Shown: positions 10,113 through 62,953 of the stretch, in pieces
Numbering within the stretch: the stretch's first letter is position 1
Layout: every line of letters starts with the position of its first letter
Origin: Synergistaceae bacterium
GTDB lineage: Bacteria > Synergistota > Synergistia > Synergistales > Aminobacteriaceae
Direction of reading: 5' to 3'
NCBI GenBank assembly: GCA_009783355.1
Contig: WRHH01000009.1
Coordinates: forward strand, 1 to 64,000
Length of the DNA: 64,000 nucleotides
Made by a program: the position numbers and the translations under genes
The notes under the pieces: generated by a model
The model's database searches: none
Seen by the model: only the letters and a program-made list of their open reading frames with translations
What the model was told of the DNA's origin: nothing

Positions 10113-13100
10113 ATGAAAAAAATATTCTTAGCGGTTACGATAATTATGGCGTTGTGCTTTATCCCGTCAGGCGCGTTGGCGGCGCCGGACGGGACGCCAG
10201 GCGACCCGTTCGAAATTTATGATGAAGACGATCTTAACGCGATACGAGATGACTTGGATAAATACTACATATTGAGCAATAACATTGACCTGAGCGGCTA
10301 CCTCTCAAGCAGCGTGGAGGGCTGGCTGCCAATCGGAGATAATGACAATCCTTTTACGGGCGGTTTAGACGGGAACTCGTTTGATATAACGGGACTGTGG
10401 ATAAGTAGGGATATGTATTATGTGGGGCTATTTGGGTATACGCTCGAAGCGACAATTGAAAACCTCAGCGTGGATATTGCGCCTCAAGGCATCAAAGGAA
10501 AAGAGTATGTCGGAGGTCTCGTTGGAACTCAAATGTCCGAGGCGGGCGTCAACGTCATAAATAACTGTTACGTCAATGGCAGCGTCAGCGGAGATTCTTA
10601 CGTCGGCGGCTTAGTGGGAAGGCAGAGCTCTTTTAAAAGCGGTGACGCAAGCTGCAGTTCTGTCATAAGCAACAGCTACGCTTCAGGCGATGTCAAAGGA
10701 AATAACTTAGCCGGCGGTCTGGTCGGAGAACAGTCGGGAGCTTCAAGCGAAATCAAAAACAGTTACGCCAGAAACAGCGTAAGCGGAGAAAACAATACCG
10801 GCGGCCTGGTAGGCAGAGCTGAAGGCAGCATAACAGATTGCTATACTACCGGCAATGTTATCGGTGATATTAATGCCGGCGGCATGGTTGGAGAACTAAG
10901 TGACGGCAGCGTCAAAAACAGCTTTGCCACGGGCGATGTAGATGGTTCAGATAATATTGGAGGTATAACAGGAATTCTACGGAACAGCAGCAGCGTAACA
11001 AGCTGTTACGCTACAGGCAGTATCAGAGGGTTGAAAGAGATTGGAGTGTTGGCGGGTTCTAAAGGCAGCTACAGCAATATATCAAGCAGTTTCCGTTATA
11101 AGAATTCCACGCTAAACGGAGCGCCTGTCTCGATATATGACATGGATAGCGTGAATACCGGAAAAAATGGAGGCGTAGTGTCTGAGGATCAACTAAAGAC
11201 AAAGCAAACGTATGTGGATAACTTGTGGTTGTTTGACGATTCCGCTGGCCCGTGGGTGTGGGACAGTAATGACTTCCCAAAATTGGACAATGGAATTGAA
11301 GGCTTTCCTTTTAACTTTTTCTCCGTGCCGGAAATAACTATTAATATACAACCGCAGCCGAACACTACCGTCTATGAAGGCAGTATTACCGGCAGCCTGT
11401 CAGTTTCCGCAAGCGTGTCAAATGGCGGGACGCCCACTTATCAATGGTATTCCCAGATAATAAGTATTAATGTCGGAGGCACGAAGCTTGAGGGCGAAAC
11501 AAACGCCAGCTTGACGATCCCGATTGATTTAGAAGAAGGAACTCATTATTTTTACTGCGAGGTCGGTTCCACGGGTACGTCTCCTTTAGCCGCGCCCCTA
11601 CATTCTATAGCGGCGAGAGTGACGGTAGAGGTGATAGAAATAACAGGATTGACCATAACGCCGAAACCAGCCGCGATGTCATTGAACGGAACGCTGCAGC
11701 TAAGCGTGGATGTAACGCCGCCCAATGCGTCGCATAAGAGCGTGAGGTGGAGCAGCAGTAATACGGCAGTGGCGTCGGTGAACTCGTCGGGATTGGTTAG
11801 GGGGCTGTCAACAGGCCCGGTCGTGATAACAGCGACGTCAGTAAGAAGTACAGATGTGAAAGATTCATTCACAGTGACGGTAACGCCGGACAAAATAGAA
11901 GTGACAGGAATAACAATAACGACGCCGAAGCCCGTTTCGATACAAAAGAACGGGACGCTGCGATTAGAAGCGGAAGTAACGCCGCCCAACGCGACGAGCA
12001 AGGATGTTGCGTGGAGCAGCGACGATCCCTCAGTGGCGTCGGTTAACGCGTCGACGGGGTTGGTAACGGGGATGTCGGTTGGAACAGCCAGGATAACCGC
12101 AGCGTCAGTAAGCAATACAAATGTGAAAGACACGTGCGAAGTGTCGATAACGCCGGATAAAATTGAAGTGACAGGAATAACTATAAGCCCGAAACCCGTT
12201 TCGATACCGGTGGGCGGGACAAGGCAGTTAAGCGTGGAAGTAACGCCGCCGGACGCGACGAGTAAGGATGTAACGTGGAGCAGCAGCGCCCCCTCAGTGG
12301 CTACGGTTGGCGAGACGACGGGATTGGTAACGGGGGTATCGGTTGGCCCAGCTGTGATAACCGCGACGTCAGTAAGTAATACAAATGTGAAAGATACGTG
12401 CACAGTGGAGGTTGGACAGATAGAAGCGACTGGAGTGAAGATAATACAGGAATATGATCTTATCAGAGTTCTCGAACAGATGCGATTACGAGTGAACATA
12501 ACGCCGGATGACGCGTCGGATAAGAGAATAGAGTGGAGCAGCAGTAGGGAAGATGTGGCGACGATTAACGCATCGGGCATTGTGACGGGAGTTTGGGATG
12601 GCGAAACAACAATAACCGCTACGTTAATTAGTAATCCAAATGTGTTTGATACGAGCACATTGTCGGTAACGTCAGGAGAGATAGAAATAGAAGAAGTGAC
12701 GATAGTGCAGAGCGCGCAGGAAACAGTTGATGTACCAATTGGTTTTGATTATCGGTTAGATTTGAAATTGAAGCCGGGAAACGCTACTATCGCCGTGGTA
12801 TGGAGCAGCAGCAATGAAGATGTTGCGACTGTGAGCCAAACGGGAGTCGTGCATGGAGTGTCACCGGGACCGGTAATTATAACCGTGAGGTCTGAGAACG
12901 ATGAAACTATAGTTGCTACGTGCAATGTAACTATAGAATCTGATCCAACGCAGGTTACAGGAGTCACATTGACGCCCGATACGGTTATTATAGCGAAAGC
13001 TGGCGATGGAATCAGGCTAACTGCTGAAGTGATGCCCGAGAAAGTGTTGAACAAGAGCGTAACCTGGAGCAGCAGCAAAGAAGAAGTGGCTGTTGTAAAC

Positions 13101-25680: not shown

Positions 25681-25759
25681 GATCCAGGCGGGGTGGCCTT
25701 CCCGCATCTCCTACCCATAAATGGGGGCGACGGCTGCCCGTTCCGTCCTCTAGGATCCG
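25681..25759 (-). ncRNA. Cloverleaf-like 79-nt element after the BECR-fold gene
   Basis: Bounded by GGATCC at both ends (25681-25686, 25754-25759). On the minus strand the inside can form GGGC/GCCC, CCCAT/ATGGG and GCGGG/CCCGC stems, giving a four-way junction. It lies 4 bp after the nuclease-like stop codon and before the terminator. It lacks a T-loop and other tRNA hallmarks. Transcription is inferred from position. It could also be a mobile-element end. Confidence 0.4.
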
Positions 25760-61318: not shown

Positions 61319-62728
61319 CTAATCCCTGTCTTTTCTAATCCCTGTCTTTATCCCTCTCTCCTCCGGCGTCCCCGGAATGAGGTTGTCGCAAATTGCGGCG
61401 CAGAGCCCTGCCACTGCCATCTGAGTTTTCAAGAGAGCCCATATCATCCCGCCTAAAGTTGTCACAAGTTCGTTTGCTCCCTCCGGCATAAATACGGCTT
61501 TGTTCGCGTCGACCCATCCCGGAAGTCCCTGAGACATAAGGAACGCAAAGCCTACTATCAGGATATTTCTCTGGCTGCTCATATCCGCCCTCATAAGCAC
61601 TTGAACGCCAAGGGCGCCTATCGTTCCAAAGAGAGCAATATAAGCGCCGCCAATTATGGCGCTCGGCATTGTGGCAATGAGAGCTCCAAGTTTCCCGACG
61701 AAACTCATTAAGATGAGTATGACGGCGCCGGTTCGGACGACGTTTCTTGAAGCAACGCCGGTCAGGTTTATGAGCCCGATATTTTCAGTATACGACGTGG
61801 TGCCGACGGCGCCGAAAATACCGCCTGAAAGCGCGCAGCAAAGCCCTTCCGCTCCTATTCCGCGCGCTATCGTTTTTTCGTCTGGGTCATCCACTCCGCA
61901 GGAATAAGAACACGAGTGATAGTCTCCTATAGTTTCAATCATAACGGCAAAGAATCCGGCAAGTATTGCGCCTATTGCAAGAGCGCTGAATTTTGGAATG
62001 CCCCATGCCCACACCGATGTCTTGAAATCCCGGAGCCATGCTGCCTCATTTACAACATCAAGGTTAATATAAGCGGGGTGCTCTGCAACAAAAATACCGG
62101 CTTTTGAAAGTCCGAAGCAAACAAGATAAGTCATTACTATTGCGGACAATATAGCAAAAATATTGGCAAACTTATTTTTGCTTACAAGGCTGAAAAGCAT
62201 TATCAACACAACTACTGAGAGCGACGCCGGCCAATATTCGGATGCCGAACCAATGGCGACGGGAGCGAGTGAAAAGCCTATCGCCATTATCGTTGGGCCA
62301 ATAACTACCGGAGTTATTAATTTGCGGATATGTCCGATAATCCCGGAATAGCCCAAGAGCGCGAGGACAATTCCCCCCACAATAAGAGCTCCTCCGAGAT
62401 ACTGCATGGTGACATCCGGCCCCTGCGCCCCATACACTCCTATTATAGTCATGACGGGCGGGATAAAACTGAAGCTTGACCCCTGAACTATTGGCAGCCC
62501 TGTGCCAAGCTTCGGATGAGTCTGGATAAGGGTGCTTATCCCCATCGCCAGATAAACGCAAGATATAAGCAATCCTGTTTCGAGCTTATCCATACCCATA
62601 GCAGGGCCAAAAATCAAAGGGACAAGAGTAGTTGCGCCGAACAGAGTGAGAACATGCTGGGCGCCAGCCAATATCATTATTGGAAATGACGGCGTATCTT
62701 CAATTTTGTAAATAACTTTTTTTGCCAT
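61319..62728 (-). CDS. Uracil/xanthine permease (NCS2 family)
   Basis: 469 residues from the ATG at 62726-62728 (AGGAGG 10-11 nt upstream). About 12-14 membrane helices. NCS2 marks: GLPIVQGSSFSFIPP (about 77-91), AVMIETIGDYHS with the key Glu, and GAVGTTSYTENIGLINLTGVASRNVV. It imports uracil or a related base with protons (UraA-like); xanthine is less likely given the leader. The last residues (about RKDRD) come from CTAATCC/GTCTTT repeat DNA. Expression is probably set by the attenuator upstream. Confidence 0.88.
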   Translation of the reverse strand: MAKKVIYKIEDTPSFPIMILAGAQHVLTLFGATTLVPLIFGPAMGMDKLETGLLISCVYLAMGISTLIQTHPKLGTGLPIVQGSSFSFIPPVMTIIGVYGAQGPDVTMQYLGGALIVGGIVLALLGYSGIIGHIRKLITPVVIGPTIMAIGFSLAPVAIGSASEYWPASLSVVVLIMLFSLVSKNKFANIFAILSAIVMTYLVCFGLSKAGIFVAEHPAYINLDVVNEAAWLRDFKTSVWAWGIPKFSALAIGAILAGFFAVMIETIGDYHSCSYSCGVDDPDEKTIARGIGAEGLCCALSGGIFGAVGTTSYTENIGLINLTGVASRNVVRTGAVILILMSFVGKLGALIATMPSAIIGGAYIALFGTIGALGVQVLMRADMSSQRNILIVGFAFLMSQGLPGWVDANKAVFMPEGANELVTTLGGMIWALLKTQMAVAGLCAAICDNLIPGTPEERGIKTGIRKDRD

Positions 62729-62758
62729 TAACAACGACCTCCTAACAATTTTCTATAT

Positions 62759-62784
62759 AAAAAAAGCCGCCTTAAAAAGGCGAC
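62759..62784 (-). terminator. Attenuator hairpin before the uracil permease
   Basis: On the minus strand GTCGCCTT-TTT-AAGGCGGC (62784-62766) then TTTTTTT. It begins 3 nt after the leader-peptide stop and ends about 30 nt before the permease start. Positioned as a conditional terminator. Confidence 0.8.
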
Positions 62785-62787
62785 GTT

Positions 62788-62889
62788 TTAAACAAATAAT
62801 CTCCATATTTCTTGTATAAAATAAGGAAAAAATAAGAAGGGCGATTTGTAAATCGCAACGCTGAAAGTTGTACGCTCCTTAAATCTCAT
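62788..62889 (-). CDS. 33-residue leader peptide of the uracil permease attenuator
   Basis: ATG at 62887-62889 with a near-ideal TTGGAGG 7 nt before; stop TAA at 62788-62790. Residues start MRFKERTTFSVAIYK and continue with the Phe/Pro/Tyr-rich SPFLFFPYFIQ, encoded by a U-rich stretch (62840-62813). Within it, GCGATTT/AAATCGC (62841-62856) can form a pause-type hairpin just before the U-rich run. A ribosome at the stop would cover the 5' arm of the terminator. This parallels the pyrBI leader of E. coli, in which UTP level controls RNA polymerase pausing. Confidence 0.65.
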   Translation of the reverse strand: MRFKERTTFSVAIYKSPFLFFPYFIQEIWRLFV

Positions 62890-62924
62890 CTTTTCCTCCA
62901 AGATTTTACTGAATTATGTATAGG

Positions 62925-62953
62925 AGCATATCACATAAGTCGATATTTAACAA
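62925..62953 (-). promoter_or_regulatory. Candidate promoter of the permease leader
   Basis: On the minus strand TTGTTA (62953-62948), 17-nt spacer, TATGCT (62930-62925). The start would be some 30 nt before the leader ATG. Confidence 0.5.

Follow-up and report, generated by a model that had tools for sequence, protein, structure and literature searches.

The gene for a probable uracil permease near the end of the window (the whole 64,000-nucleotide stretch of Synergistaceae DNA analyzed here) is preceded by a leader that is very likely a real attenuator and that, judged by analogy, probably works like the attenuator of E. coli pyrBI. Most likely, a lineage-specific and probably convergent pyrBI-type attenuator has replaced control by the regulatory protein PyrR. 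The kind of control is known and its setting is new; no report of pyrBI-type control in Synergistota was found among the papers searched. A sequence-only reading of this DNA had proposed coupled, UTP-responsive attenuation of the permease, and this proposal is still the best supported one, given a second leader in the same genome and the apparent absence of PyrR, although conservation fails at the family level.

Anatomy of the two leaders

The elements of the permease leader are the following.

62925..62953, minus strand: probable promoter, read from the sequence, with a -35 TTGTTA (62953-62948), a 17-nt spacer and an extended -10 TGA-TATGCT (62930-62925)
62895..62899, minus strand: Shine-Dalgarno sequence GGAGG of the leader ORF, read from the sequence
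62788..62889, minus strand: leader ORF of 33 codons, a reading frame with the translation MRFKERTTFSVAIYKSPFLFFPYFIQEIWRLFV and the stop codon TAA at 62790-62788
62841..62856, minus strand: candidate pause hairpin of 6 bp from the fold, GCGAUU-UACA-AAUCGC, -4.8 kcal/mol
62817..62840, minus strand: pyrimidine/U-rich tract CCCTTCTTATTTTTTCCTTATTTT, by composition a candidate UTP-sensitive pausing region
62759..62784, minus strand: intrinsic terminator with an 8-bp stem and a 3-nt loop (62784-62766) followed by 7 T (62765-62759), -10.2 kcal/mol
62738..62743, minus strand: permease Shine-Dalgarno sequence AGGAGG, read from the sequence
61319..62728, minus strand: NCS2 permease of 469 aa, probably for uracil (profile match to PF00860, 252.6 bits; orthologues in pyrR-led operons)

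The ribosome site, the 33-codon ORF, the hairpin, the U-rich run, the stop codon 3 nt short of the stem of the terminator and the permease were thus all found as first described. The promoter hexamers that had also been named are present (TTGTTA-17-TATGCT) but weak, with 8 of 12 consensus matches, and the promoter is the least certain element of the leader; a consensus scan with a threshold of 9/12 listed none on the minus strand. The leader ORF and its ribosome site, which would permit translation, are placed between this weak promoter and the terminator. The candidate pause hairpin (62856-62841) sits inside the ORF and CCCUUCUUAUUUUUUCCUUAUUUU comes next, and the U content reaches 0.47 in the 60 nt preceding the terminator stem, a level of at least 0.45 being found in 2% of the 60-mers of the window. 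The terminator hairpin has the sequence GUCGCCUU-UUU-AAGGCGGC (62784-62766, minus strand). Only 30 nt separate its T-run from the permease ATG at 62728 on the minus strand, and the consensus scan showed no promoter-like site on that strand within this interval. The leader peptide had no match in Pfam, and no Rfam family reached threshold over the permease leader, all matches being far below it. In the fold, the Shine-Dalgarno sequence of the leader ORF can base-pair with the U-rich tract, at a level not above that of shuffled sequences.

When the permease leader was shuffled with its dinucleotides preserved, 0.26% of the shuffles had an ATG-initiated ORF with a strong Shine-Dalgarno sequence that ends between -12 and +15 nt of the stem, and 4.3% had such an ORF under looser criteria (any start, loose Shine-Dalgarno sequence). 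The folding z-score against shuffles was -4.3, and -3.5 without the terminator. Strict terminators are few: five were found in 86 kb of the window genome (G000) holding 62 ORFs of at least 100 aa, and only two of the five, those preceding the permease and pyrF, are leader terminators that do not directly follow another gene on the same strand, in a sample that is biased by having been picked partly for pyr genes. When all 2.1 Mb of genome sequence were searched for a T-run combined with a Shine-Dalgarno sequence, 23 places were found and a strong hairpin preceded the T-run only at the permease, the 48-nt spacing of the pyrF leader being just outside the search pattern. Elsewhere in the window, a skipping-rope RNA (RF02924, 63.9 bits) was identified at 25681-25757 on the minus strand, with a strict terminator (25662-25642) just downstream.

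The pyrF leader lies in locus L145 (G000:C10:33500-49500).

L145:11874-11960: U-rich ORF MNLLELFIIYFRKKLFSSISLVHSILRI, with a TTG start and its own stop codon
L145:11967-11992: terminator of 10 bp; the stop codon of the ORF ends 6 nt before it
L145:12057: ATG of pyrF, 64 nt after the leader terminator

Together, this leader and its terminator (L145:11874-11992, equal to G000:C10:45373-45491) head the operon pyrF-pyrE-x-pyrC-pyrB-pyrI, which is without pyrR. The permease and pyrF leaders are alike in layout, base composition and pathway, U making up 0.47 of the 60 nt that precede the stem in each of them (background mean 0.27); they have no obvious common sequence, and their peptides differ. 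The pyrF leader has a weak TTG start, a weaker Shine-Dalgarno sequence and no clear promoter; its shuffles yielded such an ORF in 1.8% of cases under the loose criteria, and its fold shows no excess (z = -0.24). Since the same design is found on the pyr operon, the lineage probably uses coupled attenuation in place of PyrR. Just upstream of the pyrF leader, an 11-bp inverted repeat, CAGAGGCAAGA/TCTTGCCTCTG (L145:11793-11803 and 11826-11836), encloses TTGACA and could be an operator.

The permease, PyrR and distribution of the leader among relatives

The gene had been called a uracil permease from its sequence. Membership in the NCS2 family is confirmed by PF00860, and uracil as the substrate is supported by operon context, but among the family models the xanthine model scores higher (pbuX, 238 bits; uraA, for uracil, 129 bits), both scores being below cut-off. 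As the family models leave the substrate unsettled, the permease is called a uracil transporter because the gene neighborhoods of its relatives are pyrR-led. In the protein tree, the permeases nearest to that of the window are those of G021 and G069 (support 0.92). The G021 orthologue closes the operon pyrR-pyrB-pyrC-pyrF-pyrK-pyrD-uraA, whose leader is a PyrR-binding RNA (RF00515, 65.2 bits), and the G069 orthologue forms a pyrR-uraA pair with a PyrR site upstream. This context suggests, with fair confidence, that the window permease transports uracil. A gene for uracil phosphoribosyltransferase, upp, is present in the window genome. It appears to be fused as RpiB-Upp (L146:1550-2644, minus strand), the UPRTase match falling in an open frame of about 360-400 aa as in most relatives; no leader was seen before rpiB-upp in the window genome.

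PyrR or riboswitch control had been named as what might be assumed in Synergistota, and PyrR was found in 62 of the 84 Synergistales relatives. PyrR is therefore the norm in the order, and the window attenuator is to be read as a lineage-specific replacement and not as a trait of Synergistota. Neither the PyrR protein nor PyrR sites (RF00515) were found in G000 or in its genus mate G082, whose assemblies are 80% and 77% complete, and the window genus, which belongs to the gut-type Synergistaceae, appears to have lost PyrR. The protein was also not found in any genome of genus g11 included in the PyrR search. Within the family, PyrI is confined to six genomes (G000, G082 and four of g11), in which PyrR was either not found or not sought, G053 being the only one of these four g11 genomes in the PyrR search. 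In the window genus the PyrI regulatory chain adjoins pyrB (L171:1512-1937 and L176:1706-2131). No match to carA (PF00988) was found in the incomplete assemblies of G000 or G082, though pyrB, pyrC and others are present.

Conservation of the leader frame, proposed earlier as a check, was not observed. The leader is absent in all family relatives outside the genus that have the permease and usable upstream sequence, and in G082, the only genus mate, the permease was not detected. A DNA search with the permease leader within the genus matched only the leader itself, and no leader lies upstream of pyrC in G082. In most family relatives a promoter is found close to the permease gene. Terminators near the permease genes of a few relatives were considered as leaders and rejected; on reading the sequences, they precede the promoter and are part of the upstream genes. 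With PyrR in use in the nearest relatives, this distribution is most naturally read as a recent replacement specific to the lineage. The permease leader could also be a recently arisen chance arrangement.

A different arrangement was observed in genus g11: the 5' UTR of uraA is short there, and its opening bases, which lie 7-8 nt downstream of the -10, could base-pair with the ribosome site. The resulting hairpin, CCUGRAAA/UUUUCAGG, covers the Shine-Dalgarno sequence from the probable transcription start (e.g., L012, L015, L023 and L027; alignment A1), and has in its sequence the same anatomy as the E. coli pyrC leader hairpin, which controls pyrC. Covariation is weak, with 88% of cells paired, little above column shuffles; because there is little true covariation, the g11 hairpin is a lead only. 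No leaders were seen before the g11 pyr operons. Genus g11 falls together with Fretibacterium (g12) in the permease tree, and PyrR is present in the g12 genomes that were sampled; the two losses of PyrR therefore look separate. A broader scenario, in which PyrR disappeared from gut Synergistaceae on two or more occasions and two different controls of the enteric kind that dispense with a repressor, a pyrBI-type coupled attenuator (in the window genus, where it also serves the pyr operon) and a pyrC-type start-site/Shine-Dalgarno hairpin (in g11), evolved independently on the uracil permease, is tentative and, on balance, rather doubtful.

Ribosome position and alternative explanations

Transcription would start about 30 nt before the leader start codon. 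When UTP is scarce, RNA polymerase is expected to be slowed in the U-rich stretch of the leader, and the leading ribosome could catch up and get as far as the stop codon, which ends 3 nt short of the stem. There the ribosome's footprint would keep the 5' arm of the terminator unpaired, as the folding model predicts, allowing readthrough into the uracil permease gene. With plentiful UTP, polymerase would outrun the ribosome, the terminator hairpin could form and transcription would stop. By analogy with pyrBI, the U-rich tract and the nature of the target genes suggest that UTP supply sets how close the ribosome comes, and we infer that the leader ORF is translated, that pausing depends on UTP and that the permease gene responds to uracil.

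The ribosome step was modeled by setting a footprint at each codon and folding the remaining RNA at equilibrium, with E. coli pyrL, trpL and thrL as controls. In this model, the value for the permease terminator was 0.92 or higher for every ribosome position on codons 1-31 and 0.00 at the last codon and at the stop; blocking is thus predicted solely for a ribosome that has reached the last codons. The pyrF leader behaved likewise, and E. coli pyrL gave the same kind of profile. The best pairing competing for the 5' arm of the terminator, computed on transcripts cut before the 3' arm, was -3.2 kcal/mol for the permease, -5.9 for pyrF, -3.1 for pyrL, -12.1 for thrL and -2.6 for trpL. This comparison separates the classes poorly, because trpL reaches only -2.6 kcal/mol. 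Regulation of trpL and thrL was not reproduced by equilibrium folding, which by itself therefore cannot exclude amino acid attenuation. Experiments in E. coli have shown that termination falls from about 90% to less than 10% when the distance of a stop codon from a downstream terminator is shortened from 28 to 5 bp, and amino acid attenuators keep more than 20 bp between stop codon and terminator (PMC4824070); tight coupling over pyrL is required to block its terminator (PMC5021804). Taken together, the folding and these two studies favor a ribosome-proximity device over an amino acid attenuator.

Amino acid attenuation of the trp or phe type, in which a shortage at Phe or other codons would stall the ribosome in the leader and favor an antiterminator, is in fact the least likely of the three alternatives weighed here. 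Phe accounts for 7 of the 33 leader codons, and the terminator 5' arm has a weak alternative pairing (up to -3.2 kcal/mol). Against this, the leader has no control codon run that its U-richness alone would not produce, the antiterminator is far weaker than that of thrL (-12.1 kcal/mol), the stop codon lies 3 nt from the stem and not at the usual distance of more than 20 bp (PMC4824070), the target is a uracil transporter, and the pyrF leader has the same layout with another peptide. Another alternative is an RNA switch, in which a ligand or an unknown protein would be sensed by the long hairpin over the ribosome site of the ORF and the ORF would be incidental. The permease leader does fold beyond chance (z = -3.5 without the terminator), as a switch would; however, no Rfam family at threshold, no PyrR site and no strong antiterminator pairing were found, and the pyrF leader, though of the same layout, has neither a fold excess (z = -0.24) nor an obvious common sequence, making a switch improbable.

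That the ORF is just an ordinary small gene, ending in a terminator of its own and lying by chance before a separately promoted permease, is also unlikely, though a little less so than the switch. Genes usually have their stop codon shortly before the terminator, the leader is not conserved and its upstream promoter is weak. Nevertheless, the 30 nt from the T-run to the permease hold no promoter-like site on the minus strand, the peptide has no Pfam match, and the 86 kb show no other leader terminators, yet the pyr operon has one. Coupled attenuation of the pyrBI type is thus the reading that we prefer.

Comparison with known systems

To our knowledge, UTP-sensitive coupled attenuation has been established mainly in enteric bacteria, and we know of no test of ribosome-polymerase coupling in Synergistota. 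If the proposed mechanism is true, coupled attenuation acts on two units of a genome without detectable PyrR, which means that this kind of control can re-arise and replace a protein regulator; it also implies that ribosome and polymerase are tightly coupled in Synergistota.

In G021 and G069, the nearest relatives, pyr genes and the orthologous permease are under the PyrR-binding attenuator (RF00515). It is a protein-sensed RNA, and neither PyrR nor its site was found in the window genus. The E. coli thrL and trpL leaders resemble the window leader in combining a short leader ORF with a terminator; they differ in needing control codons and an antiterminator and in keeping over 20 bp between stop codon and terminator. 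The start-site switch of the E. coli pyrC type is likewise a PyrR-independent control of pyrimidine genes, but it acts on translation through the 5' end of the mRNA, unlike the layout in the window.

Compared with E. coli pyrBI, the window system has a permease as its target and belongs to another phylum, and the sequences showed no similarity. Moreover, the pyrL ORF runs through the stem, whereas the uraA leader ORF described here stops 3 nt before it and that of pyrF 6 nt before it. The likenesses are in the order and working of the parts: a leader that is presumably translated here as it is in E. coli, then a U-rich tract, then an intrinsic terminator that, according to the folding model, only a nearby ribosome would block. 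In both systems the Shine-Dalgarno sequence can pair with the U-rich tract and pyrimidine genes lie downstream, and the window genome, like E. coli, also has pyrB-pyrI.
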